DNA of 25,992 nucleotides from a virus. Each line of letters starts with the position of its first letter. The first letter of the stretch is position 1. Under the pieces are notes generated by a model. The model made no database searches. It was given only the letters and a program-made list of their open reading frames with translations, and was not told where the DNA came from. The stretch is from the IMG/VR virus record IMGVR_UViG_3300035438_000394, positions 1-25,992 of that record; one strand, given 5' to 3'. The position numbers were made by a program, and so were the translations under genes. Shown here in pieces: positions 1 through 12,706 of the stretch.

Positions 1-1
1 G

Positions 2-79: not shown

Positions 80-176
80 AGGCCCGTTAACTCAGTTCGG
101 GGTTGGAATCCTTACTGTTTCGGCTGAAGCGATCCACGACGGGCCAAGCGTGGGGCCAAGAGCAGCCTGAAAGAAG

Positions 177-1065: not shown

Positions 1066-1070
1066 AGTTT

Positions 1071-1361: not shown

Positions 1362-1437
1362 TTTCTGAATATGTTGTCGTAGTTTTCCCCGTAGCTTTTC
1401 GCATCAACGGGTCTTGGCGTGTCACCTTTTCCTGCGC

Positions 1438-1653: not shown

Positions 1654-1850
1654 AATTTTTGGTAGTTAAGTTGGTCCTCGCTAGCGGCGAAGTTGAATTT
1701 GTTGGTTAGTTCAAGCATGATAGCGTCCTCGACGCAGGTTTCAATAACGTCATACGGTGGATCGTCCGTGTGTTTGTGCGCTCGGGACACTCCGTGGCGG
1801 GTTCCTGTTTCAACGCATTCCTTGATGATTTGATAATAATTAGCCTTCAT
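1650..1850 (-). CDS. Hypothetical early protein, 66 aa
   Basis: An unrecognised 66-residue, acidic, mostly helical protein. No motif or membrane segment is visible. It is accepted as a gene because its stop overlaps the next start as ATGA and its own start lies only three bases after the preceding stop, which fits the packed operon. Confidence 0.65.
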   Translation of the reverse strand: MKANYYQIIKECVETGTRHGVSRAHKHTDDPPYDVIETCVEDAIMLELTNKFNFAASEDQLNYQKL

Positions 1851-1853
1851 GTT

Positions 1854-2201
1854 TTAGTATTTTTCGTCGTTCATTTCTTTCTCCAGAGATTTAATTTTAG
1901 AGATGACGTTCGTAATGCGCTTCTTGGCTTTCTCGAGGTCGCCCTCAAGCATCTCATCGTATTCAATATACATATCGCGCCAGCGTTTTGTCTCGGCTTT
2001 CCAAAGGTCTCGGTCCTTTTCCGTGGCAGCAAGATCCCTCCAAGCTTTCTCTAATTGCTTCGTCTGGAGAGCGTAAAGATCTCGGCGAAACTCCAAGTCT
2101 GATTTCACTTCTTCAAGTTGCTGGGTTAACTGCTTGTTGTGCGCTAGCGCGTGGTCTAGCGGTGTCATATCGTTGTGGTCGTGGTCGTGTGGTGTGTTCA
2201 T
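1854..2201 (-). CDS. Hypothetical coiled-coil protein
   Basis: A 115-residue protein that starts with a His/Asp-rich stretch (MNTPHDHDHNDMTP), which could bind metal, and then continues as an almost uninterrupted charged helix (residues about 25-110) typical of a coiled coil. No catalytic motif is visible. The start overlaps the previous stop as ATGA (2198-2201). The function is unknown. Confidence 0.7.
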   Translation of the reverse strand: MNTPHDHDHNDMTPLDHALAHNKQLTQQLEEVKSDLEFRRDLYALQTKQLEKAWRDLAATEKDRDLWKAETKRWRDMYIEYDEMLEGDLEKAKKRITNVISKIKSLEKEMNDEKY

Positions 2202-2467
2202 GGATTTGGTTGGTTGGAGGTGGCGAGGGCTTCATCTATCGGGATAAGAAAATCGCAGTCTTCGCAACAATTAGGAGTGGCGGCTTGCCCGCCGTATCCA
2301 TCTCGTATGCGTTGCAAGACTGCCGCCAGCCTGTCCCGTTGCCCCCGCGCCTCGTCTCGCTCGCGTTCTAGCTTTCGGGCAAACTCAGCAATACCCTGCT
2401 CAAATTGTGGATGATCATAACAAGCTATTCGATTCCACTCTCCGTCTGTTTCTGGTGTGTCGCTCAT
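2198..2467 (-). CDS. Hypothetical early protein with Cys-rich segment
   Basis: The start chosen is the ATG at 2467 (MSDTPETDGEWN). The frame stays open further upstream but there it only shadows the neighbouring gene. The 89-residue product has a basic-acidic helix (FARKLERERDEARGQRDRL), then CCEDCDFLIPIDEAL. The N-terminal MSDTPETD is a style often seen in phage proteins of unknown role. The cysteine cluster CCEDC might bind metal. The upstream leader is A/C-rich and lacks Shine-Dalgarno. Confidence 0.65.
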   Translation of the reverse strand: MSDTPETDGEWNRIACYDHPQFEQGIAEFARKLERERDEARGQRDRLAAVLQRIRDGYGGQAATPNCCEDCDFLIPIDEALATSNQPNP

Positions 2468-2487
2468 AGTTTTTGGTTGGTTTTGGT

Positions 2488-2886
2488 TCATCCAATGGAA
2501 TCCCACATGCTGGCGAACTCTCCGCAGAATCCGCATTGCTTGGGTGTGTCGTGTGATCGGCTGATGGCGACTTGAGACAGCCCGCAGGCCGCGCATCGTT
2601 GCTCGCCCATGCTCATGTTGTCGGATTCGCAGCGTTCTAGTTTGAAGTAGTCCTCCATCGCTATCACCATGCCTTGACCCATCGGGGAGCCGTAGCGGTA
2701 TCCTGTGAGTTCTTCGCAGCGGTCGGCATCCCATAGGGCTTGGCAGCACATGGCGAGTTTGCCGAAGGTGCAGCCGAAGTGCATTCGTAGGAGTGCCACG
2801 GTGCGGGCTTCGGGTTCGGTCATATTTTTTTTTGGTTTTGGTTCGTCTTCGGGGTTAGGCCAGCCGAGTCCGTCGAGTCCGCTCAT
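2488..2886 (-). CDS. Zinc-ribbon protein, 132 aa
   Basis: The C-terminal third contains two CxxC pairs (CAAC, then CGFC after about 17 residues), the layout of a zinc ribbon. The middle is helical with further cysteines. The start at 2886 is preferred over the in-frame ATG at 2895 because it gives the ATGA overlap with the upstream stop (2883-2886) found throughout this operon. Phage zinc-ribbon proteins of this size commonly bind nucleic acid or act as adaptors; no specific role can be assigned. Confidence 0.65.
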   Translation of the reverse strand: MSGLDGLGWPNPEDEPKPKKNMTEPEARTVALLRMHFGCTFGKLAMCCQALWDADRCEELTGYRYGSPMGQGMVIAMEDYFKLERCESDNMSMGEQRCAACGLSQVAISRSHDTPKQCGFCGEFASMWDSIG

Positions 2887-3203
2887 GGTGTCCATAGGTT
2901 AAGTGTTTTCAAGAATGCTTCAGCGCGTTGGGAGGCAGTAGCTGATACATTGTGTTCTAGCGCGACTAGGTATAACCCATACCCTCCGATTCCGTGGTAG
3001 CCCGATTCTCTATTCAGCATCTTCTCTGCTTCGTGCATCGCGTTGAGGTCGTTGAGGTAGTCGGGATAGTATCCGCATAGGTGGCGACCATCTGGAGTAA
3101 CAGTGGTAAACTCAGGAGGCTGGTCTTCGCCGTGGTAATACTCAGGTATGAACTTCCACCCACACGCTTCCGCGATGGCGATTCTTTGTTGTTCAGGATT
3201 CAT
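2883..3203 (-). CDS. Probable phage ABA-sandwich domain protein
   Basis: This 106-residue protein begins MNPEQQRIAIAEACGWK and contains PDYLNDLNAMHEAEKML and then ATASQRAEAFLKTL. I recognise these as the conserved blocks of the small phage ABA-sandwich family (PF18066), which is widespread in environmental phages and has no established function. The start at 3203 is chosen because its ATG overlaps the upstream TGA as ATGA (3200-3203) and it aligns with the family N-terminus; the ATG at 3218 would add only five residues. Confidence 0.7.
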   Translation of the reverse strand: MNPEQQRIAIAEACGWKFIPEYYHGEDQPPEFTTVTPDGRHLCGYYPDYLNDLNAMHEAEKMLNRESGYHGIGGYGLYLVALEHNVSATASQRAEAFLKTLNLWTP

Positions 3204-3556
3204 TGGCAGCTTTCGCATTCGGGGTTATCCATCCTGCAAGCCTCGCCCAACGGCTCATCAAGATCATCGTCAATAGACTCAAGGTGCATCGTCAAACCCT
3301 CGTCCATCCTGCTTTCCAGTTTCTTGATCTTAAGGTTGGGGAGATCGACGTGATACTGGCTGGCAAGGGAGCCGTGGGCGATTAGTGGTCCACCGGAAGG
3401 GTCGATAAAACTCAAGCCCTCTGAGATGCCATCCGCAAATCCGCCGAACCTACAAGAGTTGTTAACTAACGCCAGACGGTAAACTCCGTCCGAGACTTTG
3501 ATCGCGGTTACTGTGTGCGTTCCGTAGTGGCCTTTGATTTCAATTTCTTTGTTCAT
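3200..3556 (-). CDS. Hypothetical early protein, 118 aa
   Basis: The start is the ATG at 3556 (MNKEIEIKGHYGTHTVTAIK), which shares one base with the TAA of the preceding small membrane gene (TAATG). The N-terminal half is beta-rich; the C-terminal part is acidic and helical and ends with PECESCQ. No domain is recognised. The longer open frame upstream to 3637 overlaps the small membrane gene and is not used. Confidence 0.65.
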   Translation of the reverse strand: MNKEIEIKGHYGTHTVTAIKVSDGVYRLALVNNSCRFGGFADGISEGLSFIDPSGGPLIAHGSLASQYHVDLPNLKIKKLESRMDEGLTMHLESIDDDLDEPLGEACRMDNPECESCQ

Positions 3557-3672
3557 TATGGTTTCGGGTAGTTGTCGTCGTTTTCGCTGATGATTACATG
3601 CCACAGGGCAGCTAGGATCAATCCTACAAAGATCCATATCAGCAACAGTGTTACAATGCTTATTGCGCTCAT
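3556..3672 (-). CDS. Small single-pass membrane protein, 38 aa
   Basis: Reading the minus strand from 3672 gives a 38-residue protein with a hydrophobic stretch of about 23 residues (SIVTLLLIWIFVGLILAALW) followed by a short polar tail HVIISENDDNYPKP. It therefore looks like a single membrane-spanning peptide. Both ends are TAATG junctions that share one base with the neighbouring genes, strong evidence that it is real and translated by coupling. Small early phage membrane peptides can be superinfection-exclusion or lysis-regulating proteins. Nothing here discriminates between those, and its early position argues against a classical holin. Confidence 0.65.
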   Translation of the reverse strand: MSAISIVTLLLIWIFVGLILAALWHVIISENDDNYPKP

Positions 3673-3947
3673 TATTTGCTTTCGGCTAGTTTCCTTGCGA
3701 GTTTCTTTTTGATCGCGGCATCGAATCGCTCAATGTCAGCGTCTCGGATCACAAGCCCAACGGTTTGCGGCCTTGAGTTGTGAGTCACCTTGTTGATAAT
3801 GCTGGCAACTCCAAACGGGATCTTCGCTGACCTCGCTGTGTGCATTAGGTTCTTCCCCCCGATGACCTTGTAGCCCCGTGGAATCTGGGCCGTGTATGGT
3901 TCTTCCTCGTTGAAGAGAATGTCTGGATTTCTGTCGATTGGTGTCAT
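3672..3947 (-). CDS. Hypothetical early protein, 91 aa
   Basis: A 91-residue protein with an N-terminal beta-rich part (YTAQIPRGYKVIGGKNLMHT), a central segment ending NSRPQTVGLVIRDADIERFD, and a basic C-terminal helix (AAIKKKLARKL). No family is recognised. The leader ACAAACAAAATG is A/C-rich and has no Shine-Dalgarno. It lies immediately after the RuvC-like gene and is coupled to the small membrane gene by a TAATG overlap. Confidence 0.65.
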   Translation of the reverse strand: MTPIDRNPDILFNEEEPYTAQIPRGYKVIGGKNLMHTARSAKIPFGVASIINKVTHNSRPQTVGLVIRDADIERFDAAIKKKLARKLAESK

Positions 3948-3962
3948 TTTGTTTGTGTTTGT

Positions 3963-4391
3963 TTATTGTTTTGCCCCGTATGCGGCGATTAGTAATGCGT
4001 CAGCAATTGCGTGAGTGACCTTGATTTGTGGGAACAATTCCTGCGAGCGTCTTTTGCTGACGTTCTTGTCGCCCTTCGTCATGCACCCCATTGCCTTTTG
4101 CCAGACTTGCGGCCTGACACGCTCAAAGGGGATTCCCGCTGCCGTGAGTGCCATTTCGAGATGACCGAAGCCGTTGCCAAAGGTAAAGGCCGATTTAACA
4201 CCCATCTGAGGACTGCTGTGGACTTGTTCCAGATAAGCTCTGCAATTTCCATCGCAACCCACGCTGTAAGAATTGAGTAATTCAAACAAGTCCTGCAAAG
4301 TATCCGGCATTTTATGTGCATGTGCATTTCCTCTTTCGTCGATGAGTGCGATTCCTCCATTGGTTCCGGGGTCTATTCCGATTGTTGTCAT
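3963..4391 (-). CDS. RuvC-like Holliday junction resolvase
   Basis: This 142-residue protein has the RNase H-fold RuvC signature. It opens with TTIGIDPGTNGGIALID (catalytic Asp7), has YLEQVHSSPQMG (Glu55), and ends with HAIADALLIAAYG, giving the His127/Asp131 pair that completes the metal site. Such phage enzymes cut four-way or branched DNA to resolve recombination intermediates and clear concatemers before packaging. It is somewhat shorter than bacterial RuvC. It overlaps the preceding gene as ATGA and lies in the same operon as the RecT, exonuclease and SSB genes, a coherent recombination module. Confidence 0.88.
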   Translation of the reverse strand: MTTIGIDPGTNGGIALIDERGNAHAHKMPDTLQDLFELLNSYSVGCDGNCRAYLEQVHSSPQMGVKSAFTFGNGFGHLEMALTAAGIPFERVRPQVWQKAMGCMTKGDKNVSKRRSQELFPQIKVTHAIADALLIAAYGAKQ

Positions 4392-4594
4392 TGATTCCAG
4401 AGTTTCAGTTTTAGTTTTTTGGCGAGTCCGATTACTGCGTCTAGCTCAACCTCGTCGGTGTAGCTATGGCTAGTCTCGGATTTGAACGCGACCCACTTCC
4501 CGTCTGCTCGTCTCAGCGTCTTGATGCACTTCTCCTCTTGCCATTTGAGGCGAGGGGACAAGTTGCCTCCTGTTTCTGGGAATAGGTCGCTCAT
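4388..4594 (-). CDS. Hypothetical early protein, 68 aa
   Basis: A 68-residue protein beginning MSDLFPETGGNLSPRLKWQ, with a beta-like centre and a basic amphipathic C-terminal helix (VIGLAKKLKLKLWNQ). No domain is recognised. The ATG is preceded by AGGA eight bases upstream, one of the few Shine-Dalgarno-like signals in this arm. ATGA overlaps occur on both sides. The context suggests an accessory role near the resolvase, but that is only position. Confidence 0.65.
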   Translation of the reverse strand: MSDLFPETGGNLSPRLKWQEEKCIKTLRRADGKWVAFKSETSHSYTDEVELDAVIGLAKKLKLKLWNQ

Positions 4595-4806
4595 ACTCGT
4601 TGTCCTGCGAGGATCATTTCGGATTTGTGACGCGCTACCTCAAGGCCACCGATTACTTCGACTAGAACGATTTGGCAACCCTTGAGGTCGTGCAACACCG
4701 TTCGCATCCACTCAACGTCCTGCGGATTTTCTTGGTTGTAAGGAGTAGTCAGTGACAGGTAGCCGTTTTTGTGTGCGTCAACTGGCGTTAGGATTTCAAT
4801 TTCCAT
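4591..4806 (-). CDS. Hypothetical early protein, 71 aa
   Basis: An unrecognised 71-residue alpha/beta protein (MEIEILTPVDAHKNGYLSLT and, later, GCQIVLVEVIGGLEVARHK). It starts nine bases downstream of the SSB stop and overlaps the next gene as ATGA. No catalytic motif is visible. Confidence 0.65.
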   Translation of the reverse strand: MEIEILTPVDAHKNGYLSLTTPYNQENPQDVEWMRTVLHDLKGCQIVLVEVIGGLEVARHKSEMILAGQRV

Positions 4807-4815
4807 GTGGGTGGT

Positions 4816-5142
4816 CTAAAAAGGGATGCAATCCGAATCGTCATCGTCCTGAGCATTTGCTTGAGGAGCGTATCCGTTGGACTTGGCTTCGCCGTGTGAG
4901 CTTTGCTTGGGGGCATCCCAGTCCATGATCTTGCCATTGCCAAGAATTGCCCCGCGCTCACCAGCAGCTTTCCGCGCTTGGCTGATCTTCTGGACGATGA
5001 AGCCATCGTTCCCGTATTTGTCTTTCTCCTCGCGGATGAGCAGCGACATGCTCAGGTATTTCTTCCCTGTCTTTGGAGACTCGTAAAGAGCCGTCTTGTC
5101 GATCTTGCTAACGTCGATGCTGATATCAATTGTTTGTTTCAT
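4816..5142 (-). CDS. ssb: Single-stranded DNA-binding protein
   Basis: Read from the ATG at 5142, the protein has 108 residues. It has a beta-rich N-terminal part (MKQTIDISIDVSKIDKTALY then KKYLSMSLLIREE), a GAILGNGKIMDWD strand, a low-complexity linker, and a highly acidic tail DDDDSDCIPF. This tail is the hallmark of bacterial and phage SSBs, used to recruit recombination and replication partners. It is shorter than E. coli SSB, so the OB fold is compact. The ATGA overlap with the exonuclease at 5139-5142 fixes the start. It would coat single strands made by the exonuclease before RecT annealing. Confidence 0.75.
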   Translation of the reverse strand: MKQTIDISIDVSKIDKTALYESPKTGKKYLSMSLLIREEKDKYGNDGFIVQKISQARKAAGERGAILGNGKIMDWDAPKQSSHGEAKSNGYAPQANAQDDDDSDCIPF

Positions 5143-5942
5143 TGTTGTATGTATTTTGGTGTTTCGATTGTTTGGATTCCTTCGATTTGTTTCGGCCAGT
5201 GGTTCGTTGCAACGCAGGTTTGCCACTTAGCTAAGGCGTTCATATATCCGGCCCGACCGAGTTCAAGCAAATTCTCGGATAATTCTACCCATGCCGTTTC
5301 GTGAGGAGATTCAACCTCCACGAAGCAGAAGATAAACCTTGTCCGCTTCTCGTTTGCCGCTGCATTCCAGAGGTCAAGGTAGAGTGCCGCTTGCCAGTGA
5401 TAGCCCCGGTTGACTATGACCCGCTGGAGGGATTCAAGGCTTCCAATCTCTCCGGTCGTCTTCAAGTCCATTAGGCAATCAAGGCCATCCGGCACGATGT
5501 CGATAAGCCCCTTTACCTCGGTAACTCCAATCTTGCCGAAAACCGCCACCTCGGTTTTGTATTTTGCATCGAATTGCAAGTGATATTCATCCGTGACGGC
5601 CTCGGCAATGGAGAGTGCCTTGTCGATTTCGTCTCGTGAAGTGATGATCTTGCCTGACTCGGCCTGATCGGCCTTCCACTCGCGGGCTTCTTTTGTGCGG
5701 AAGTCGGCGTAGGGAGAGATTGCGATAAGGTCTTCCACCGTCTCAGGCTCCAGAGTCGCGGCATGGATGAGCGTCCCCAGATCCATTGCCTTCGATGCCT
5801 CCCTTGGTTTGCTGTGCCGCCACTTGAAAGGGCTTGTGTTAAAATCCCAGAGTAGAGACTTCGACACTGGCCCCGCCTTGGGGTCTGAAGGGGTCGCTGA
5901 CCGCTCGTAATACGTTTTGCCTAGTCCTTGTTCGATTTTCAT
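5139..5942 (-). CDS. RecB-family PDDEXK exonuclease (RecE/ExoVIII type)
   Basis: This 267-residue protein shows the ordered motifs of the phage PDDEXK exonuclease family near PF12684: MDLGTLIHAATLEPE with His60, Glu131, GLIDIV with Asp148, DLKTT with Asp159 and Lys161, and the RecB-type QAALY motif at 184-188. Enzymes of this family degrade one strand of double-stranded ends and produce the single strands used by an annealing protein. Here the RecT gene lies in the same operon, separated by three small genes, and SSB is coupled directly downstream. The recombination pair is therefore functionally complete. The start overlaps the upstream gene stop or lies within four bases of it, as elsewhere. 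Confidence 0.88.
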   Translation of the reverse strand: MKIEQGLGKTYYERSATPSDPKAGPVSKSLLWDFNTSPFKWRHSKPREASKAMDLGTLIHAATLEPETVEDLIAISPYADFRTKEAREWKADQAESGKIITSRDEIDKALSIAEAVTDEYHLQFDAKYKTEVAVFGKIGVTEVKGLIDIVPDGLDCLMDLKTTGEIGSLESLQRVIVNRGYHWQAALYLDLWNAAANEKRTRFIFCFVEVESPHETAWVELSENLLELGRAGYMNALAKWQTCVATNHWPKQIEGIQTIETPKYIQQ

Positions 5943-6127
5943 ATTGTTTCAATTTGTTCTACTTCTTGAATGCTGACGTTGATTTTCCATAAATGCCCCC
6001 AAACTTCTTTTGTCTGAACCCACTTGAAGAATTTCAGCATTGCTTCCTTGTGGTCTTCGGCTTCGATATGAAGAGTCCCCTTGAACAAGTTGCAAGGTGA
6101 TTCGTAATGAGCTGCATAAGTTTTCAT
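5939..6127 (-). CDS. Hypothetical early protein, 62 aa
   Basis: A 62-residue beta-alpha-beta protein (MKTYAAHYESPCNLFKGTLH, then DHKEAMLKFFKWVQ). It may be a small ferredoxin-like fold, but no family is recognised. It carries ATGA overlaps at both ends between the small gene at 6124-6282 and the exonuclease. Confidence 0.65.
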   Translation of the reverse strand: MKTYAAHYESPCNLFKGTLHIEAEDHKEAMLKFFKWVQTKEVWGHLWKINVSIQEVEQIETI

Positions 6128-6282
6128 TTGAATAGCTTTGTGATGGTGGTGGCGATCTTGCCTAGTTTGCTGAGTTTGCTTTGTTTCGGGTTCCTGAGTG
6201 CGCCAAGCAATGCGATTGTCATTTCGAGATCGCTTCCGATTGCGCGGGTTCTTGTCTTAAACGGTGTGTGTGTGACTCTCAT
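6124..6282 (-). CDS. Small basic protein, 52 aa
   Basis: Read from the ATG at 6282, this yields 52 residues beginning MRVTHTPFKTRTRAIGSDLE. It is strongly basic (many Lys/Arg, two Asp/Glu) with a predicted C-terminal helix (LSKLGKIATTITKLFK). ATGA overlaps at both ends support it as a genuine link in the operon. The early codons contain a CA-dinucleotide run. Its charge suggests nucleic-acid binding; no family is recognised. Confidence 0.6.
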   Translation of the reverse strand: MRVTHTPFKTRTRAIGSDLEMTIALLGALRNPKQSKLSKLGKIATTITKLFK

Positions 6283-6584
6283 TTGTTTGCTTGGGATAAT
6301 AGGTAAAGTTCTGAGATGGTTTGGGTCACATCTTGCGATAAATATAGGTAAGCGATAGCCGCGTCCATCCCCGGAGCCGAGTGGTCAGTGACCACGATGT
6401 AAGCGTCACCATCATCAGCGTCGCTAATGATTGTTGTCGGCGAACCGAAATTTTCAAGTGATGTGATGCTGATATTGGTGCAACCGCTCTCCCTTAGAAC
6501 ATCAACCCATTCCGATATTTTTTTTGATTCAGCGGCCCGCACAGCGTCATGCCATGCTTTTTCTTTGGTTTCTGATTTTTTCAT
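6279..6584 (-). CDS. Hypothetical early protein, 101 aa
   Basis: A 101-residue, acidic alpha/beta protein. It has an N-terminal charged helix, SGCTNISITSLENFGS, then DADDGDAYIVVTDHSAPGMD and a C-terminal helix. No motif is recognised. The leader ACCAAATCAAACAAAATG is A/C-rich. It is the first gene after RecT in transcription order, 43 bases downstream. Confidence 0.65.
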   Translation of the reverse strand: MKKSETKEKAWHDAVRAAESKKISEWVDVLRESGCTNISITSLENFGSPTTIISDADDGDAYIVVTDHSAPGMDAAIAYLYLSQDVTQTISELYLLSQANK

Positions 6585-6627
6585 TTTGTTTGATTTGGTT
6601 TAAGTGTTTTGTTTTCGTAGTGATTCC

Positions 6628-7404
6628 TTATTGCGCTGCCTCTTTCGCCATTGCTTCAAAAGCATCGTTTAGAGTTTCTGTTGTCGTCTTGACCTTCTTT
6701 GCCGGGACTTCTTGGACAATCTCGACTTCGACAGGCTGGACGATTTCCGCCTCGATTTCCATCGTTTCAACGGGTTCCTCGATGAACGGGTTGGCCTTTA
6801 CCGGAGTGACATTGCGCGGCGGTTCCGCGAAGTCCCGAACCTCGTCTTGCGTGTACATCCCCAGCGACATATCGGAAGCGTAAGCGCGGCTCCAGAAGCT
6901 CGCTGCACGGTATCTCAGCATTTGCCCCGGCATCGTCAGCCATTTGCTCCCGTTCTTGGTTGACCAGCCTTCTTTCTTTGCCATTTCAAGCGTGATGCGC
7001 TCGCCTTTCAGCTCCTCGCCGCTTTCCCGGTCCCTTGCCACAGCGTAGCACCAAGACGGGGCTTCATCCGAGTCAAACACGAATCGCAGGGGCGAGAACT
7101 TCCCGCTTGCGTTAATCATGCCGATCAATGCCGTTGCACTCCAAGAGGGACGGCCATGAATAATTGCGAGGTTTTGGCAAACCATCAATGGGTCAAGGCG
7201 GGTTCGCTTTGCTACGTTCAAGGCGATTGCGCAGTTAGCGACGTTTCCGGCAAAGTCTTTGGGGACCAAGGTGGACTTTGAAAGCATCATGGCTTGCCGT
7301 TGGATAAGCTCAAATGCCTGAGTTTCTGCGCTGACCTGTGCTAGTGCCATGCTTTGCGGTTCGTGCGCCGCAATCGCCTCGTTTGTTTTCGTTGCTGTTG
7401 TCAT
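6628..7404 (-). CDS. recT: RecT-family single-strand annealing protein
   Basis: The 258-residue product matches RecT (PF03837): an N-terminal segment ending VPKDFAGNVANCAIALNVA, the LDPLMVCQNLAIIHGRPSWS block, the ALIGMINASGKF block, and the diagnostic QMLRYRAASFWSRAYASDM followed by LGMYTQDEVRD. RecT proteins anneal complementary single strands and promote strand invasion, working with a partner exonuclease, here at 5139-5942. The C-terminal 60 residues are low-complexity and rich in Glu, Val and Pro, unlike the conserved core, and may recruit partners such as SSB. Its leader (CAAACAAAACGAAAACATG) is a clear example of the A/C-rich, Shine-Dalgarno-free type. Confidence 0.92.
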   Translation of the reverse strand: MTTATKTNEAIAAHEPQSMALAQVSAETQAFELIQRQAMMLSKSTLVPKDFAGNVANCAIALNVAKRTRLDPLMVCQNLAIIHGRPSWSATALIGMINASGKFSPLRFVFDSDEAPSWCYAVARDRESGEELKGERITLEMAKKEGWSTKNGSKWLTMPGQMLRYRAASFWSRAYASDMSLGMYTQDEVRDFAEPPRNVTPVKANPFIEEPVETMEIEAEIVQPVEVEIVQEVPAKKVKTTTETLNDAFEAMAKEAAQ

Positions 7405-7435
7405 GTTTTCGTTTTGTTTGGTTTGTGCTAATGGT

Positions 7436-7630
7436 TTACGCTTCGTATTCGTTCACGACGATTTGGCCTTCTGAGACGACGTATCCGAAAGCCCTCAGAG
7501 CAGGGACTACAAGATGCTCGACAACCTCTTCTAGTGTGTGATCGTCTCCCGGAATCCAGATTTCAACCTTGGGGTTTTGCATTTCTATTTTGCGTCCGTG
7601 GTTTTCTGTCGGTTCAATCGTAATTTTCAT
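7436..7630 (-). CDS. Hypothetical early protein, 64 aa
   Basis: A 64-residue acidic alpha/beta protein (MKITIEPTENHGRKIEMQNP; later LEEVVEHLVVPALRAFGYVV). No family is recognised. The start follows an A/C-rich leader, ACCAAACAAACCAAAAACATG. It precedes recT in transcription by 31 bases. Confidence 0.65.
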   Translation of the reverse strand: MKITIEPTENHGRKIEMQNPKVEIWIPGDDHTLEEVVEHLVVPALRAFGYVVSEGQIVVNEYEA

Positions 7631-7670
7631 GTTTTTGGTTTGTTTGGTGCTGAATGCGTGTTCGTTTTAG

Positions 7671-7685
7671 CCGGGTTCGATCCGG
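7671..7685 (-). other. Short stop-proximal hairpin with T-loop-like loop
   Basis: On the minus strand this reads CCGG-ATCGAAC-CCGG: a 4-bp GC stem with a 7-base loop. It starts two bases after the stop of the DnaA-domain gene, in the leader of the next gene. There is no following U-tract, so it does not look like an intrinsic terminator. Confidence 0.4.
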
Positions 7686-7687
7686 TT

Positions 7688-8017
7688 TCAAGCGTAAATT
7701 TCAATTTGTTTCTCTTTTTCTTCTGGTTCTGCCCCGTATTGGCAGCGGTTGGAGATAGCGGCGAGCATCTTGGCGAATGAAACGTCCATTTCAGCTTCAT
7801 TCAAGATCCTCTGCCGCGCCCAGATCACGGTGCTGTGACAGGTTCGGTTGCACCTATCCGCCGTGTCTTGGTAAGGGTGATGATCCGCCCAGCAGGCCAT
7901 GACGACGTGCCGAGCCATCGAAACGTGTTTCGTTCGTTTTGGGCCTAGAATGTCCTCGGGAGTGACTCCGAAAACGTCCGCCGTTTCTCTGACCAGTAGA
8001 TCGAAGTCCACGATCAT
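7688..8017 (-). CDS. DnaA domain IV (DnaA-box-binding) protein
   Basis: This 109-residue protein corresponds to the DnaA C-terminal DNA-binding domain (PF08299) without the AAA+ part. VRETADVFGVTPEDILGPKR is the entry helix, VSMARHVVMACW the next, and TADRCNRTCHSTVIWARQRI the recognition helix-turn-helix; DnaA proteins usually have DHSTV where this has CHSTV. Such stand-alone domains bind DnaA-box-like DNA. In a phage this may mark the phage origin, recruit host factors or antagonise host DnaA. The start overlaps the preceding stop as ATGA. No perfect DnaA box was seen in the intergenic region, so its target is unknown. Confidence 0.8.
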   Translation of the reverse strand: MIVDFDLLVRETADVFGVTPEDILGPKRTKHVSMARHVVMACWADHHPYQDTADRCNRTCHSTVIWARQRILNEAEMDVSFAKMLAAISNRCQYGAEPEEKEKQIEIYA

Positions 8018-8250
8018 TTGCTTGTATTGTTGGGGCTTCCAAGGCTCTTGATTGCCGTATCTGTCCGCCTGAATTGGCGTAGGATGCCAGCAGCAAACTT
8101 CCGGCTTACTTCACCGTATGCCCCGCCGATGAATAGCGTGGCATCTTTTTTCGTAACGCCGTGTTCCCTTCGCCATGCCGCACGGGTCACGCAGACGGTT
8201 GAGTCTCCCTGCCCGTATTGGTTAACGCTCTCTGATTTGTGTATTCTCAT
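8014..8250 (-). CDS. Hypothetical early protein, 78 aa
   Basis: The start is taken at the ATG at 8250 (MRIHKSESVNQYGQGDSTVC), which follows an A/C-rich leader. The much longer open frame upstream only shadows the gene at 8264-8644. The protein is basic, with GVTKKDATLFIGGAYGEVSR and a basic C-terminal helix. No family is recognised. It is coupled by ATGA to the DnaA-domain gene, so it may act with it; this is inference from position. Confidence 0.65.
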   Translation of the reverse strand: MRIHKSESVNQYGQGDSTVCVTRAAWRREHGVTKKDATLFIGGAYGEVSRKFAAGILRQFRRTDTAIKSLGSPNNTSK

Positions 8251-8263
8251 TTCGTTTTGTTTT

Positions 8264-8644
8264 CTATTGGTTTGTTTTTCTGTAGTGTTTTGCCATGTCA
8301 AAGCCTGCGAGTGCGCAAACGTCCGCCCATGCGTAATGCGAAGGTGATTGTTCCATGTCATCCCATGCGTCCCGGCAAGCTTCCGTGTGAAGCCAAGCCA
8401 GCCTTTCAGCCATCGTTTCCGGCGTTTGCGGCTCGTCCGTCTGCTTGTCGATCTGCTCCCACCACCGTTGAGCGGAAGCAAGCCAGCACCCCTCACGGGT
8501 AAACCTCTCAATGGCCTGTTCTCGCGCCCACAAGGGGTCTTCAGGGTCTTTGCATGGCTCCTCCCTCCCGTCATTGCAGAGAGGGCAAGAACTCTCAGGA
8601 TCTGGCCATTGACGACTCCCGCATCGTGAGCAGGCAAATTTCAT
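8264..8644 (-). CDS. N-terminal zinc-ribbon protein, 126 aa
   Basis: Starting at the ATG at 8644, the protein opens MKFACSRCGSRQWPDPESSC followed by PLC, giving two CxxC pairs about eleven residues apart, a zinc ribbon. The rest is helical and rich in Trp (REGCWLASAQRWWEQID). The start is preferred over the open frame to 8695 because it gives the ATGA overlap (8641-8644) and a G-rich Shine-Dalgarno-like run just upstream. It is likely nucleic-acid binding; the specific role is unknown. Confidence 0.65.
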   Translation of the reverse strand: MKFACSRCGSRQWPDPESSCPLCNDGREEPCKDPEDPLWAREQAIERFTREGCWLASAQRWWEQIDKQTDEPQTPETMAERLAWLHTEACRDAWDDMEQSPSHYAWADVCALAGFDMAKHYRKTNQ

Positions 8645-8880
8645 GCGTCCCCCTTTCCTGTTGCCTTGGCGATTGCGGCGCGGGCATTTTCCCACATTGC
8701 GCGGTCGTAGCTGTCTGCTTCCCGTGGTTCCTGCGGCAAGAGCATTTGTAAAGCCTCCAGCAATTCCGACGCGGCGGAAATAAGGTTAAGGTTCGCTTGG
8801 TTTTCCTCGTCATCATTGAAAAAACCAAGGATCGCCCGTTTTCCAATGTGCCAAGGTCCGGGTGTGTGTGTGTGTTTCAT
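8641..8880 (-). CDS. Phage protein of the TPGPWHI type, 79 aa
   Basis: Read from the ATG at 8880, it begins MKHTHTPGPWHIGKRAILGF and continues with LISAASELLEALQMLLPQ and ENARAAIAKATGKGDA. This block order (TPGPW near the N-terminus, an A-ELLEAL helix, an AIAKA helix) is familiar from many small phage proteins of unknown function. The first codons form a CA-dinucleotide run, so the coding start itself extends the A/C-rich leader. Confidence 0.7.
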   Translation of the reverse strand: MKHTHTPGPWHIGKRAILGFFNDDEENQANLNLISAASELLEALQMLLPQEPREADSYDRAMWENARAAIAKATGKGDA

Positions 8881-8900
8881 CGTTTCGTTTTGTTTGTGGT

Positions 8901-9095
8901 TCATGCGTTTATGTCTTGGACAAAGTATTGCGTCACGTTGGAAAGGTAATTGTGAACAGCAGCGATCCTCACACCATGCGCCAGATAAAAGGACATTTCG
9001 GAAAGCTCGTTTTGCTGGTAGTCTGTCCAGCTTTTCTCGTCGTTTCCGATGAGTTTCCAAGCTGCTTCTTTTGTAATTTCAACTGAGTGGTTCAT
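8901..9095 (-). CDS. Hypothetical early protein, 64 aa
   Basis: A 64-residue, largely helical protein (MNHSVEITKEAAWKLIGNDE; later ELSEMSFYLAHGVRIAAVHN). It is not recognised. The leader AAAAACAAAAAAACAAAATG is nearly free of G and C other than scattered C. It is followed by 20 bases before the next gene. Confidence 0.6.
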   Translation of the reverse strand: MNHSVEITKEAAWKLIGNDEKSWTDYQQNELSEMSFYLAHGVRIAAVHNYLSNVTQYFVQDINA

Positions 9096-9123
9096 TTTGT
9101 TTTTTTGTTTTTCTGATTCTTGT

Positions 9124-9348
9124 TCAGACCGAAAGAAGCGCGACGATTCCGCCCAAACTGTCTACTCTCCGAACGGCTCCGAAATTGAGGACAGCTACAG
9201 CGTGACCGTGGGACCGATACGCAACCTGCAACCCGTCAACTGTTACGGCTACCATGTCGCCGCCATTCAGTTCCTTTGCTGGCAGTTTGCGGAGGCGTGC
9301 CACATCGTATTTTTTCCCGCCAATGGTGATTGTTTTTTGTGTGTTCAT
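9124..9348 (-). CDS. Hypothetical early protein, 74 aa
   Basis: A 74-residue protein with TITIGGKKYDVARLRKLPAK, then GDMVAVTVDGLQVAYRSH and repeated short beta strands. This suggests a small beta-barrel, but no family is recognised. Its leader CAAACAAAACGAAACAAAATG is a textbook example of the A/C-rich type. Confidence 0.65.
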   Translation of the reverse strand: MNTQKTITIGGKKYDVARLRKLPAKELNGGDMVAVTVDGLQVAYRSHGHAVAVLNFGAVRRVDSLGGIVALLSV

Positions 9349-9397
9349 TTTGTTTCGTTTTGTTTGTTTTCCTCATCAGTGACGGATTCACCGCCAG

Positions 9398-9411
9398 ACG
9401 CTTCTCAGCGT
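9398..9411 (-). other. Stop-proximal hairpin with GAGA tetraloop
   Basis: On the minus strand the sequence ACGCT-GAGA-AGCGT forms a perfect 5-bp stem capped by a GNRA tetraloop. It starts eight bases after the stop codon of the gene at 9420-9632. There is no U-tract. It belongs with the other stop-proximal hairpins of this arm. Confidence 0.4.
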
Positions 9412-9419
9412 TTCGGAAT

Positions 9420-9632
9420 TCAGGACAGCGGGCAAGACATGCCGTGATTTGACAGGATTCGGTGAATCACTGGCAAAGAGTCGATCCATGTTTTTTCCAG
9501 CGTCCTTTCGTATCCGTTGTAATCTGTAAGCGTCCACCCATATTTTGGGTCACGGTAGAATTTCCATGTGAAGGATTTCCCGTGATCCTCGCCAGTTCCT
9601 TGATAAATCGCTTTAAATGATGTCGTTTTCAT
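9420..9632 (-). CDS. Hypothetical early protein, 70 aa
   Basis: The start is placed at the ATG at 9632 (MKTTSFKAIYQGTGEDHGKS). The frame is open further upstream only because it reads through the small gene at 9674-9820. The product is beta-rich with several aromatic residues (FTWKFYRDPKYGWTLTDYNG). No family is recognised. The 41-base region upstream contains the hairpin at 9646-9666. Confidence 0.6.
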   Translation of the reverse strand: MKTTSFKAIYQGTGEDHGKSFTWKFYRDPKYGWTLTDYNGYERTLEKTWIDSLPVIHRILSNHGMSCPLS

Positions 9633-9645
9633 AGTTTGAAGTATT

Positions 9646-9666
9646 GGCGAGGGGTCGAACCTCGCC
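9646..9666 (-). other. T-arm-like intercistronic hairpin, copy 1
   Basis: On the minus strand: GGCGAGG-TTCGACC-CCTCGCC, a perfect 7-bp stem with a 7-base loop. It starts seven bases after the stop of the gene at 9674-9820, in the leader of the next gene. The loop and GG/CC closing pairs resemble a tRNA T-arm. There is no U-tract. A near-identical copy lies at 9836-9856 with a compensatory base-pair change. Confidence 0.6.
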
Positions 9667-9673
9667 GGGTGGG

Positions 9674-9820
9674 TTAAATTTCGGCGGTGATGGCTGGCCA
9701 ATCCTCGGCTAGAGTCGCAACAGCGGCAGCAATAGCCTCTGTGGCCGTCATTCCTGCCGCTACGTTTTCCGCTGCGATATCCGCCACGCGGTTGAGATAC
9801 TGTCTTGTTTCCTGTGTCAT
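9674..9820 (-). CDS. Small helical protein, 48 aa
   Basis: Reading the minus strand from the ATG at 9820 gives MTQETRQYLNRVADIAAENV and then an alanine-rich helix (TATEAIAAAVATLAEDWPAI) to a TAA at 9674. Its regular helical pattern looks like a real protein. It is flanked on both sides by the paired hairpins, which gives the two intercistronic gaps a matching layout. The function is unknown. Confidence 0.55.
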   Translation of the reverse strand: MTQETRQYLNRVADIAAENVAAGMTATEAIAAAVATLAEDWPAITAEI

Positions 9821-9835
9821 AATGGGCGAGGTTGT

Positions 9836-9856
9836 GGCAAGGGTTCGAACCTTGCC
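9836..9856 (-). other. T-arm-like intercistronic hairpin, copy 2
   Basis: On the minus strand: GGCAAGG-TTCGAAC-CCTTGCC, a perfect 7-bp stem and 7-base loop. It starts ten bases after the stop of the gene at 9867-10232. Compared with copy 1, the fourth stem pair is changed from G-C to A-T, with both partners altered, so pairing is kept. The flanking CGGGT on its right side is shared with copy 1. Confidence 0.6.
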
Positions 9857-9866
9857 GGGTTAGTAT

Positions 9867-10232
9867 TTAGAAGCAGGAAACGATGATCCCGCCTTCAAAC
9901 TCAATGAGTGTTCCGTGGTCTTGGATGTAAGAACGGATCAAATCGTCGATTTCTTCGCTGTCCTCGTCACCGTCTAAATCGATTCCCGAATACTGCAGGG
10001 CAAACGACAAGGCTTCCGCCCCGTGATGCTCCATAAGCCAATCTTGCAGGCTCGTGGACTCTGAGAAGTCGCAGCGAATGGCGCACACGTCTAGCTCCAT
10101 TTCCTCGCCAGTTTCCTCCTCAAGCTGTTCCAAGTATTCTGCCAAAGCCCGCGCCCCGTTCCATGTCCAAGCGGCGTTTTCGTCGGATTTGAGAGCGCGT
10201 GCGATATCTGAGGTGTTAAGTGTCGTTTTCAT
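9867..10232 (-). CDS. Acidic hypothetical protein, 121 aa (possible DNA mimic or antirestriction-like)
   Basis: From the ATG at 10232 the protein has 121 residues and is strongly acidic: EYLEQLEEETGEEMELDVCA in the middle and GIDLDGDEDSEEIDDLIRSY near the end, finishing with IEFEGGIIVSCF. The blocks AIRCDFSEST and LIRSYIQDHGTLIEFEGGI look like small phage proteins of unknown function. The charge could suggest a DNA-mimic role, but this is speculation. A 104-base gap lies upstream and holds a bulged GC hairpin but no gene. Confidence 0.65.
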   Translation of the reverse strand: MKTTLNTSDIARALKSDENAAWTWNGARALAEYLEQLEEETGEEMELDVCAIRCDFSESTSLQDWLMEHHGAEALSFALQYSGIDLDGDEDSEEIDDLIRSYIQDHGTLIEFEGGIIVSCF

Positions 10233-10336
10233 CGTAGTTAATTTGTTTTGATTTGTGAGAGTCGCCCTGCTTCGCGGGTCACGCTTGGATGTGGAGAGAT
10301 TGGCGGTTAATTGCCAGCTGTCGAGAATAAAACTAT

Positions 10337-10501
10337 TTATTTTTCCCCGACGTAAAAAGTCCATTGGTCAAGTTGGTTCATAGCCATTCCGCACGGCTCG
10401 CAGGCGGCGTTGAACCATTCGCGCCCGTCCCCCGTCTTAATGAGGTAAAGGCCTTTGATCTCCCCACAGCAGGGGCAGGTGTTTATTGGTTTTTCGTTCA
10501 T
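10337..10501 (-). CDS. Small zinc-ribbon protein, 54 aa
   Basis: Read from the ATG at 10501, the product begins MNEKPINTCPCCGEIKGLYL and has a second cysteine pair NAACEPCGMAMNQ, so CxxC (CPCC) and CEPC could bind one zinc. It ends WTFYVGEK at a TAA at 10337. It starts four bases after the stop of the small membrane gene. Zinc-finger peptides of this size are frequent in phage early regions; no specific role can be given. Confidence 0.6.
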   Translation of the reverse strand: MNEKPINTCPCCGEIKGLYLIKTGDGREWFNAACEPCGMAMNQLDQWTFYVGEK

Positions 10502-10505
10502 AGGT

Positions 10506-10652
10506 TCAAGCGTGAATGATTGCGGCGGTGCAGTAAATCACTGCACAAGCGGCCATAATTCCAAGGAAGATCCCCGGTGCTTTACGCCAGCCGAATATTG
10601 CGACCATTGCGACGAAAAAGACGGCAGGAATGATGAGGATGGAAGAATTCAC
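10506..10652 (-). CDS. Small two-helix membrane protein, 48 aa, GTG start
   Basis: Starting at a GTG (10652), the protein reads (M)NSSILIIPAVFFVAMVAIF, a short basic turn GWRKAPG, then IFLGIMAACAVIYCTAAIIH and a stop at 10506. It thus has two hydrophobic helices with a positively charged turn. The GTG overlaps the upstream TGA as GTGA and is preceded by AAGGAGG at good spacing, so initiation is well supported. It could be a superinfection-exclusion or other membrane peptide. A holin is possible, but no endolysin is nearby. Confidence 0.6.
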   Translation of the reverse strand: MNSSILIIPAVFFVAMVAIFGWRKAPGIFLGIMAACAVIYCTAAIIHA

Positions 10653-10885
10653 TTCGAGCCTCCTTCTAAGCCCATTAGGACGCTTTCTTGAGAATCAATC
10701 ACCTTGTCTAGCTCTTCAACAGCCAGCCAGCCGGAATCAGCTTTGCCATTCTCACGCCATTTAGAGACAAGCACGGACCTTTCCGCATTTAGTCCGGCAA
10801 TGAATTTGACCATGCCTTGAATTGTGGCGTAACGGCTCGCATCGTAGCACATGGCGACTTGTCCCGCTTTGCTTGATGGACTCAC
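10649..10885 (-). CDS. Hypothetical early protein ending LEGGSK, 78 aa, GTG start
   Basis: A 78-residue, mainly helical protein (SRYATIQGMVKFIAGLNAER; later LAVEELDKVIDSQESVLMG). The start is GTG, overlapping the upstream TGA as GTGA, with a G-rich Shine-Dalgarno run four bases before it. Its own last codons (LEGGSK) carry AAGGAGG, the Shine-Dalgarno for the next GTG start. The function is unknown. Confidence 0.65.
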   Translation of the reverse strand: MSPSSKAGQVAMCYDASRYATIQGMVKFIAGLNAERSVLVSKWRENGKADSGWLAVEELDKVIDSQESVLMGLEGGSK

Positions 10886-11133
10886 TTTGCCCCCCCTTCC
10901 AATTCAATCAGCTTCTCTGTGACCAGCTTGGAGACCTCAAGATTCCCGAAAACGGCGTTTGCGCCATACTGGTCACAGGCATCGTCCACAATCGTCTGGA
11001 TATATTCTAAGTAAATGGCCGATCCAATACTGTCTCCCCGGTTTGCTGCGTCCATAGCGCGTTCCACTTCCCGCAGTATCTCAGCCAAGACGTTTCCAGT
11101 GACCATTTTCTCAAAGTGTTTGTGAATTTTCAT
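10882..11133 (-). CDS. Hypothetical early protein ending LEGGAK, 83 aa
   Basis: An 83-residue helical protein (NVLAEILREVERAMDAANRG; later EVSKLVTEKLIELEGGAK). The C-terminal LEGGAK closely matches LEGGSK of its downstream neighbour, and in both cases the codons provide the Shine-Dalgarno for the next gene. The ATG is directly preceded by a run of ten CA repeats plus a short CGATG context, an extreme form of the A/C-rich leader. The function is unknown. Confidence 0.65.
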   Translation of the reverse strand: MKIHKHFEKMVTGNVLAEILREVERAMDAANRGDSIGSAIYLEYIQTIVDDACDQYGANAVFGNLEVSKLVTEKLIELEGGAK

Positions 11134-11134
11134 C

Positions 11135-11155
11135 GTGTGTGTGTGTGTGTGTGTG
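11135..11155 (-). repeat. CA-dinucleotide run in a gene leader
   Basis: Twenty-one bases of alternating GT on the plus strand, that is (CA)10 in the leftward mRNA, end two bases before the ATG at 11133. Such a run is unstructured and could act as a translation enhancer, and it may also change length by slippage. Shorter CA runs occur beside the starts at 11418, 8880 and 6282. Confidence 0.8.
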
Positions 11156-11167
11156 AAGCTGCTACTA

Positions 11168-11183
11168 GGCTGGAAGCTAAGCC
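11168..11183 (-). other. Weak stop-proximal hairpin
   Basis: GGCT and AGCC are separated by an 8-base loop, seven bases after the stop of the gene at 11191-11418. With only four base pairs it is listed because its position repeats the pattern seen elsewhere in this arm. Confidence 0.25.
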
Positions 11184-11190
11184 ATTAAAT

Positions 11191-11418
11191 TTATTGGAGC
11201 GAGTCGCAGAATGCTTGCTCTAGTCTTTGCAACTCTTCAACAATCTCAGAATCGACAAGGTGCTGTTTCGTCCATTGGTCATTCTCGAGGAATCCCTCGT
11301 TTTCAAGCATTGCAAGAGAACCTGAAAAATTTCCCTTTTGAACGTGTGCGTCTGTCAATTCCCCGGCGTGTGATTCAAGGGTGAGCGTGTAGCCTTTCAC
11401 TTTGTGGATTGCTTTCAT
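11191..11418 (-). CDS. Hypothetical early protein, 75 aa
   Basis: The start is the ATG at 11418 (MKAIHKVKGYTLTLESHAGE), preceded by an A/C-rich leader containing CACACACAC. The upstream continuation of the frame shadows the next gene. The 75-residue product has a beta-rich N-terminus and a helical C-terminus (SEIVEELQRLEQAFCDSLQ). No family is recognised. Confidence 0.6.
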   Translation of the reverse strand: MKAIHKVKGYTLTLESHAGELTDAHVQKGNFSGSLAMLENEGFLENDQWTKQHLVDSEIVEELQRLEQAFCDSLQ

Positions 11419-11440
11419 CGTTTCGTGTGTGTGTGGGTTG

Positions 11441-11459
11441 AAGCGGGGTGGAACCGCTT
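11441..11459 (-). other. T-arm-like intercistronic hairpin, copy 3
   Basis: On the minus strand: AAGCGG-TTCCACC-CCGCTT, a perfect 6-bp stem and 7-base loop. It starts eight bases after the stop of the gene at 11468-11653. The loop differs from copy 1 at one position, and the GG/CC closing pairs are the same; the rest of the stem is unrelated. Confidence 0.5.
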
Positions 11460-11467
11460 GTGGGTGT

Positions 11468-11653
11468 TTAGGCGAGATTGCCAACAGCTTGAGCATGCAA
11501 CGCCCATGCTGCGTGAAACGATGACAGGTCTTTTGCTGCTTGAATCGGGTCGCCGTAAACTGCTGAGTAAATTGCCTTGTCTCGGGCTTCATCGCGCTTA
11601 TCGAGGCAGTAATCGACGTATTCTTGGGCGGATGTGGATGTTGTTGCTGTCAT
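11468..11653 (-). CDS. First gene of the leftward operon, hypothetical, 61 aa
   Basis: A 61-residue helical protein (MTATTSTSAQEYVDYCLDKR; later AKDLSSFHAAWALHAQAVGN). No family is recognised. Its leader, CACCAACCAATCCAATG, is free of G over its last 17 bases before the ATG. Being the promoter-proximal early gene, it may be an early host-takeover factor, but that is only position. Confidence 0.6.
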   Translation of the reverse strand: MTATTSTSAQEYVDYCLDKRDEARDKAIYSAVYGDPIQAAKDLSSFHAAWALHAQAVGNLA

Positions 11654-11728
11654 TGGATTGGTTGGTGTGGCGTTGTCTCAGTCGCTAGCATCAGCTAACT
11701 AAAAAGAACCTACAGCACAAAAATCCCA

Positions 11729-11766
11729 TTGTCGACAAATAGTTTCCAAAAAGTGAAAATAGTTTC
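11729..11766. repeat. Palindrome plus paired AAATAGTTTC repeats
   Basis: TTGTCGACAA (11729-11738) is a perfect 10-bp palindrome. It overlaps the first of two perfect 10-bp direct repeats AAATAGTTTC at 11737-11746 and 11757-11766, which start exactly 20 bp apart (about two helical turns). They lie 76-113 bp upstream of the first early gene, suitable for regulator binding. Confidence 0.5.
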
Positions 11767-11958
11767 AAGACAAGCAACAAACCTAGGAAACACAAGGGAT
11801 TGCCAAGCCACGGGAAAGCTGGACCACGAGCAAACGAGCCATCCCACAGGCTAAATAACGGCCCCTAGTTACACTGGCAGCAACTACCCATGCCGGAAGA
11901 GATCCAAGCTCGACGTGCCGTGGTGGCTAGTTGATGGGTTATTGTCAAATATCCAAGG

Positions 11959-12000
11959 GATAAGGATAAGCCATGAAATCGAATGATAAGCCCTGAAATC
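11959..12000. repeat. GATAAGC repeat cluster
   Basis: GATAAGCC(A/C)TGAAATC occurs twice (11965-11980 and 11985-12000), 15 of 16 bases identical and 20 bp apart, with one more GATAAG in tandem at 11959. Further GATAAGC copies are at 12311 (plus) and 12041 (minus). This iteron-like arrangement could be protein-binding sites of an origin or operator. Confidence 0.5.
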
Positions 12001-12037
12001 CATTCCTCATGCCATAGAATAAAGCCAACGCGTGAAG

Positions 12038-12320
12038 CTAGCTTATCGCTCGCAGGGTTTAGCTTAGGCTTGAAGCTCGCTCCTTCCTCCGGAGGAATTT
12101 TAATCATGTTTCCGGAAACGTGTCAAGCTTTCTGTGTTTGTGAACATTCCGCTGACATGGCGCGAGGATGGCCTGTAGCGCGCCGGGCGTGAATATGGGA
12201 CTATGGCAAGGGCGAACGATTCAAAGCGATTTTAGTCTATCATCTCTCTATCAGGTCACTTGGCACGGGAATACGCAGACGCAACAAATAAGCAGGTGCA
12301 AGCAACATGCGATAAGCTAG
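12038..12320. repeat. Long-range 12-bp inverted repeat
   Basis: CTAGCTTATCGC at 12038-12049 and its perfect complement GCGATAAGCTAG at 12309-12320 flank 259 bp containing the leftward promoter and palindromes. Paired sites of one protein bound at both ends could loop the promoter between them. Confidence 0.45.
12084..12126 (-). promoter_or_regulatory. Leftward promoter with two operator-like palindromes
   Basis: On the minus strand a perfect TTGACA (12126-12121) is followed after 18 bp by TAAAAT (12102-12097), five of six bases matching TATAAT. A 12-bp palindrome GTTTCCGGAAAC (12108-12119) fills the spacer, and a 14-bp palindrome TTCCTCCGGAGGAA (12084-12097) covers the end of the -10 box and the expected start site. 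Their centres are 23 bp apart and both are built around CCGG. A bound repressor would block the promoter. The leader to the first gene would be about 440 bases. Confidence 0.45.
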
Positions 12321-12330
12321 GTAAGCAGGT

Positions 12331-12442
12331 GATTCAAACGATCGTTTCACATGGCGCAATACATTAGCCAGGCAATAAGGATTAACCGGCGCGTATTCAA
12401 ACGGGCGTTTCAATTGAACGATGGATTCAAACGGGCGTTGGG
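12331..12442. repeat. Three phased ATTCAAACG(N2)CGTT sites
   Basis: ATTCAAACGATCGTTTCA (12332-12349), ATTCAAACGGGCGTTTCA (12395-12412) and ATTCAAACGGGCGTT (12425-12439) share a core of two AAACG/CGTTT half sites. The starts are 63 and 30 bp apart, close to six and three helical turns. The first is a perfect 12-bp palindrome in its centre. A weaker relative, ATTCAAAGCGATTTT, begins at 12219. They resemble operators or iterons. Confidence 0.5.
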
Positions 12443-12624
12443 ATTCTCACGTTGCTAATGAGACGCTGTTGCAATAGGGGGGGGGCGGTTAGAGTTAGAG
12501 CGGCGGCGCAAATGCTTATACGGTCCACTTGCCAAAGGAATTATTTTTCAACGGGGCCTGTTACTGTTTATGGCCGCTTCAATTTTTAAAAATGGCTAAA
12601 GGGGGCTGTGTGCTGTGGTGTGCA

Positions 12625-12650
12625 GGATGCGACGTTAAGCGTCCATTTTT
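12625..12650 (+). terminator. Possible rightward intrinsic terminator
   Basis: GGATGC and GCGTCC (one G-T wobble) form a 6-bp stem with an 8-base loop, followed after one A by five T. It precedes the late promoter candidate by about 30 bp and could insulate the late genes from transcripts starting further left. It is a modest stem, so it is tentative. Confidence 0.35.
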
Positions 12651-12678
12651 GTGTATGGTATCACACTTTACGACGTGC

Positions 12679-12706
12679 TTGACAAGGATGTGTAATCTGT
12701 TACTTT
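12679..12706 (+). promoter_or_regulatory. Candidate late promoter
   Basis: A perfect TTGACA (12679-12684) is followed after 16 bp by TACTTT (12701-12706), a weak -10 matching three of six bases. The first late gene begins 46 bases further on. A weak -10 beside a consensus -35 is compatible with dependence on an activator, but an unrelated phage-specific promoter is equally possible. Confidence 0.3.

Follow-up and report, generated by a model that had tools for sequence, protein, structure and literature searches.

Perreault et al. (2011, PMC3088659) proposed that phage hammerhead ribozymes occurring in clusters divide long transcripts into gene-length mRNAs. Their replacement by a non-catalytic element at orthologous gaps, described here, gives a direct handle on the purpose of these intergenic ribozymes, and so does the ability of that element to form their stem III. 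The element in question resembles the T-arm of tRNA, whose isolated forms are recognized by several enzymes. According to a review (PMC7912444), a 17-nt T-arm with 53-GUUYRANYC-61 suffices for TruB/Pus4, and the needs of TrmA are limited to a stem of 5 bp with a T-loop of 7 nt. Model hairpins that combine the acceptor stem and T-arm are cut by RNase P in vitro (PMC11143913). A literature search with sparse coverage of subscription journals found no T-arm mimics in phage mRNA.

The window (the whole stretch of DNA that was analyzed, a linear virus record of 25,992 bases) carries genes for RecT, a RecE-type exonuclease, a DnaC-type loader, HNH endonucleases, and structural proteins. It has almost no kin among named phages. 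A blastn search of INPHARED with the hairpin region gave no matches, and a tblastn search with the PHROG 9974 protein matched Microcystis phages alone, at 37-40% identity. The initial annotation had placed two T-arm-like hairpins on either side of a small leftward gene. Both occur exactly at these positions (Table 1), and neither is matched with three or fewer mismatches in 100 dinucleotide shuffles of the window. Their distances from the preceding stop codons, a common flank (ACCC immediately upstream), and one compensated pair change between the two stems (G-C to A-U) were also confirmed. Each is predicted to fold into a 7-bp stem with a 7-nt loop (-11.6 and -13.4 kcal/mol with z = -3.1 and -4.4 for hairpins 1 and 2, respectively). 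No tRNA was detected in the window with ARAGORN, and the complete cloverleaf of a tRNA or tmRNA gene is not present.

A third hairpin that the initial annotation had missed belongs to a second stem class, AAGCGG(G)-TTCRAYC-(C)CCGCTT. Hairpins of this class have a CA-rich leader downstream, occupy other gaps, and recur in L006, L011, L028, L029, L034, L037, and other loci. Another hairpin, AACCGG-ATCGAAC-CCGGCT, lies right after a stop codon at positions 7669-7687 of the minus strand and has the same loop in five relatives; it was left out of the family since it has an A at position 54 in place of U54. Within positions 1-12700 of the minus strand, the start codons of this operon are preceded by A/C-rich leaders (cacacacacacgaaacgATG) without a Shine-Dalgarno sequence, suggesting a host that initiates translation without one.

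Table 1. Features of the leftward gene cluster that contains the T-arm-like hairpins (window positions)
Feature	Positions	Strand	Remarks
Type II hammerhead ribozyme	9369..9418	-	Gap follows ORF 9420-9632; core complete, three stems present
70-aa ORF	9420..9632	-	Between hairpin 2 and hammerhead
Leader, hairpin 2 to next ATG	9633..9645	-	13 nt; no Shine-Dalgarno
T-arm-like hairpin 2	9646..9666	-	GGCGAGG-TTCGACC-CCTCGCC; 7 nt past stop of 48-aa ORF
48-aa ORF	9674..9820	-	Flanked by hairpins 1 and 2; matches no family
Leader, hairpin 1 to next ATG	9821..9835	-	15 nt; no Shine-Dalgarno
T-arm-like hairpin 1	9836..9856	-	GGCAAGG-TTCGAAC-CCTTGCC; 10 nt past stop of PHROG 9974 gene
PHROG 9974 gene	9867..10232	-	121 aa, function unknown; anchor for orthologous gaps
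E3 core, third conserved intergenic element	10264..10285	-	AGCGTGACCCGCGAAGCAGGGC; upstream of PHROG 9974 gene; no Rfam match
T-arm-like hairpin 3	11441..11459	-	AAGCGG-TTCCACC-CCGCTT, other stem class; 8 nt past stop, then CA-rich leader; z = -3.7

Scans for relatives found 64 loci with the 121-aa PHROG 9974 protein and 80 with the alignment as the query, and two MAG contigs were matched in a genome scan. Locus L134 (CAIOHY010000083.1, labelled Cellvibrio) has a PHROG 9974 homologue together with two T-arms of the same kind, and it is possibly a clue to the host or a mis-binned phage contig. In all, the T-arm-like intergenic RNA elements of related phage contigs form a family with 48 or more distinct members, with 1-4 copies per genome within one operon. 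Unrelated matches from a strict viral scan, some of them near true tRNAs (L008, L013), were excluded. In another phage group (L014, L015, L021, L024, L025), a 12-13 bp hairpin, GGTGCGGGGAGG-TTCGATC-CCTCTCCGCACC, occurs ahead of a gene. It has the exact length of a tRNA acceptor stem plus T-arm and is preceded by an arm-like sequence (AGTCCTGCTCGTAAGGACT); this is possibly a tRNA-like structure.

When the gap downstream of the PHROG 9974 gene is chosen by protein homology only, a T-arm hairpin is found in most relatives above ~57% identity and in several more distant ones. The stems in this gap vary (GGCGAGG, GGCAAGG, GCAAGG, GCGGGATG, GCGGGGAG, the bulged GCGGC-AAG, and TGCGCGGGGG). Loss of the stem or uncompensated change among relatives had been named as evidence that would count against selection. 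Among ~30 protein-defined close relatives the stem is mostly kept, but L040/L151 shows an uncompensated mismatch, the only one, and in several relatives the place of the hairpin is empty or taken by a hammerhead.

The proposal that structure is selected is supported by strong covariation across relatives. In 33 distinct stems, a set picked for perfect stems and thus more biased than the tests by loop only or by protein-defined gap, 100% of the cells are paired, five of the six pairs are changed on both sides, and 63 cells are double-changed versus a mean of 19.6 after shuffling, with 14 further pair types. Selection by loop only gives at least six contiguous flanking base pairs at 36 of 231 sites in stop-to-start gaps versus 17 of 5168 sites elsewhere in the same contigs, and nearly all of these gap sites lie 12-22 nt past the stop codon. 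If the loop sequence is left free, 59 hairpins with a 7-nt loop start 4-15 nt past a stop codon, whereas shuffling of the gaps leaves 15-17 and positions deeper in the gap have 14-19. About two thirds of these 59 hairpins have the loop T-Y-C-N-A-H-C, and the individual T-loop positions are T in 44, C in 43, A in 42, and C in 42. The assignment of the loop to the T-loop type, which the initial annotation had made from two copies, is therefore upheld by hairpins picked on position and loop length only. The window copies conform to the T-loop motif (U54, C56, A58, pyrimidine 60, and a closing G53-C61 pair). U54 is present in 48/48 family elements, where the search pattern imposes it, and in 44/59 hairpins found without that constraint. 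The stem covariation and the predominance of T-Y-C-N-A-H-C among the 59 stop-proximal hairpins indicate that RNA fold and loop are both conserved. Most T-arms are located 5-13 nt past a stop codon and 10-35 nt ahead of the next ATG, and the distance to the stop is far less variable (sd 3.8 nt) than that to the next start (sd 11 nt).

The same operon contains a type II hammerhead that was also missing from the initial annotation. Its layout is TTCC-GAAA-CGCTGAGAAGCG-UC/-TGGCGGTGAATCCGTCA-CTGATGA-GGAA, with predicted cleavage (slash) after GUC between positions 9397 and 9396. The permuted order, with stems I (6 bp) and III (5 bp) closed and stem II (4 bp) open, is that of type II. A search of positions 9000-12700 with the Rfam 15 covariance models (E <= 10) did not detect this copy and returned no family that matches the T-arm element. 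Hammerheads in L028 and L041 score 34.3 and 32.6 bits with RF02276, for which the gathering score is 37. Relatives keep the hammerhead with altered stems, and homologues of the 70-aa ORF that precedes it in the window (MKTTSFKAIY..) come directly after a T-arm in L023 and L047.

T-arms and hammerheads replace each other at orthologous positions. The gap downstream of the PHROG 9974 gene, from GGxIVSSF-stop to M(T/K/N)(H/N)SVEITKEAA, contains a T-arm in L006, L011, and L029 and a hammerhead in L034 and L045. The gap before this gene has a hammerhead in L146, L200, and L052, a T-arm in L058 and L176, and E3 in close relatives. In L181 the two are combined in this second gap, where a hammerhead has a T-arm as its stem III (ACGGGAG-TTCAATC-CTCCCGT). 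Many relatives have neither T-arm nor hammerhead in the gap, and the element is therefore dispensable. The E3 region (10264-10320, minus strand) follows the pattern GGC..GTCGCC..AAGCGYGRCCCGCGANGCAGGGCGA with an invariant CCCGCGANGCAGGGC, and in the relative G005 (L032/L100) it is present as four near-tandem copies with a period of 44 nt (L100 8420-8576). E3 may itself be a catalytic or a regulatory RNA.

Two scans of the collection that targeted type II cores with stem III capped by a T-loop show that the L181 arrangement is recurrent. Eight of the nine matched stretches are real hammerheads with three stems each. Fully paired examples occur in three lineages beyond L181: L221 (CCAGGG-TCCGATC-CCCTGG), L242/L245/L246/L247 (CGTAGGG-TCC[GA]ACC-CCCTGCG), and L243/L244 (CACAGGG-TCCAACC-CCCTGTG). 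Together with L181/L222 this makes four unrelated lineages, in two of which the hammerhead lies ahead of an ATPase gene (PHROG 1297). When the scan leaves the loop unspecified, a T-loop is present in just 4 of 47 hammerhead-like matches, all four from one lineage. The T-loop on stem III is thus a recurrent minority feature that is dispensable for hammerhead function. Stem III of the hammerheads starts ~8-10 nt past the stop codon, which is the site of the free-standing T-arm.

We suggest that the T-arm hairpins are mRNA-boundary elements of the 3'-end or processing type, a counterpart of hammerhead stem III with a loop kept for recognition, and we give this reading about an even chance of being correct on the basis of these sequence comparisons. 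The hairpins would act as intercistronic boundaries in a leftward polycistronic phage message. Each would form just behind the ribosome terminating on the upstream gene and end up as the hairpin at the 3' terminus of the upstream message, where it could mark a processing site or block decay from a downstream cut. Self-cleavage of a hammerhead would leave stem III as a 3' hairpin on the upstream RNA at the same stop distance, and T-arms may play the part of the ribozymes in these gaps with the help of a protein or of the host. The simplest function that the two could have in common is that of a boundary hairpin at which the upstream message ends or is protected. What selection acts on may well be the feature shared by both elements, a hairpin at a fixed stop distance that would end the upstream message. 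The T-arm that follows a major head protein gene in L227 also agrees with a boundary role. Conservation of the T-loop (U54, C56, A58, C60, and G53-C61) could be explained if a reader of tRNA T-arms, or of that fold, binds or modifies it, with a TrmA-like enzyme as the first candidate. The hairpins thus draw attention to possible binding or modification of phage mRNAs by tRNA T-loop enzymes. The interchange could also reflect only the tolerance of both elements by the same gap, and the tight stop spacing may perhaps result only from compact gaps and the ribosome footprint.

Binding or modification of phage mRNA by a host T-loop enzyme (TrmA at m5U54, TruB at pseudouridine 55, or both) might itself be the function, although we consider this unlikely. 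Acceptance of minimal T-arms by these enzymes and the prevalence of U54 both agree with it. Every perfect-stem copy has the 5-bp stem and 7-nt T-loop with U54 of a predicted TrmA substrate. The TruB consensus (53-GUUYRANYC-61 with a stem of at least 5 bp) fits 27 of the 48 loops, including those of hairpins 1 and 2, but not the other 21, among them hairpin 3 (TTCCACC). A quarter or more of the loops are misfits for TruB, with C55 in 14/48 and a pyrimidine at position 57 in 7/48. The occurrence of C55 therefore argues against TruB as the sole reader and rules it out as the general one. Modification may also merely accompany the fold. A phage-encoded RNA-binding protein that regulates early genes through the loop is improbable. 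Hairpins bound by proteins usually combine a constant loop with varying stems, and 1-4 copies in one operon would suit such a regulator, but there is no RNA-binding or RNA-processing family among the window proteins, and the presence of the loop on hammerheads of unrelated phages with Shine-Dalgarno sequences (L221) favors a general host partner. Cleavage by RNase P or RNase Z, with a mimic of the top half of tRNA directing a cut at the hairpin base as in the tRNA punctuation of mitochondrial transcripts, is no more probable. The conserved T-loop, the in vitro cleavage of model hairpins, and the 12-13 bp stem of the L014-type element are compatible with such a site, but nearly all stems have 6-10 bp instead of the 12-bp T/acceptor ruler, and RCCA or CCA opens the 3' flank in 0/48 elements, so the copies do not qualify as RNase P substrates.

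A plain terminator, or a passive stabilizing hairpin with an unread loop, would account for distant relatives with GC-rich stems ahead of a run rich in T or C/T (L053, L187, L225) and for the T-arm 3' of a major head protein gene in L227, an unrelated phage. We regard this explanation as rather unlikely. The window hairpins have no 3' U-tract (their 3' flanks are AATACTTC, ACAACCTC, and CAACCCAC), which bears out the earlier remark that they are not ordinary terminators and rejects an intrinsic terminator here. Just 5/48 elements have TTTT within 8 nt on their 3' side, an ATG follows 10-35 nt downstream, and a passive cap leaves the loop conservation unexplained. An element acting at the DNA level, such as the remnant of a tRNA-gene integration site or a REP-like repeat, is highly improbable. 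T-arm sequence is a usual integrase target, but the stem covariation strongly disfavors a DNA-level role, and placement on the sense strand after stop codons, an asymmetric loop, and use in a ribozyme likewise point to RNA. Among the roles first envisaged for the hairpins, that of an RNA boundary, processing, or stability element fits best. Recognition by a tRNA-handling enzyme fares unevenly, since the RNase P and RNase Z rulers do not apply and TruB fails as a general reader, but the hairpins fit the minimal T-arm substrate of TrmA, and 27 of the 48 loops fit that of TruB.

The boundary reading can be carried further. Phages might punctuate their polycistronic messages at stop codons in either of two ways that can replace each other, with a hammerhead that cuts itself or with a T-arm decoy for the tRNA-handling machinery of the host. 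This would be a prokaryotic counterpart to tRNA punctuation that retains the T-arm alone. This extension is speculative and unlikely. As phage intercistronic RNA elements, the T-arm hairpins would most likely mark message boundaries.

Each of the known systems resembles this element in part. Like intrinsic terminators, it is a GC-rich hairpin soon after a stop codon, but the window copies lack the U-tract and the next gene begins within 10-35 nt. It has a T-loop on a helix in common with RNase P model hairpins (acceptor plus T-arm) and with tRNA-like RNase P substrates in phage RNA, whereas nearly all copies lack the 12-bp helix and RCCA. The tRNA T-arm and the minimal TruB and TrmA substrates have the same 7-nt loop, U54-Y-C56-N-A58-H-C60, with a closing G53-C61 pair. 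Unlike the T-arm of tRNA, the element stands without a surrounding tRNA on a continuous stem of 6-10 bp and tolerates C55 and a pyrimidine at position 57. The stand-alone T-arm also differs from hammerheads in having no catalytic core (a search of the hairpins for CUGANGA, GAAA, UH, and three stems was negative), and it cannot self-cleave by that route. It nevertheless shares with the type II phage hammerheads (RF02276; Perreault et al. 2011, PMC3088659) the same gaps, the same distance from the stop codon, a place at the mRNA level, and clustering at small phage genes.
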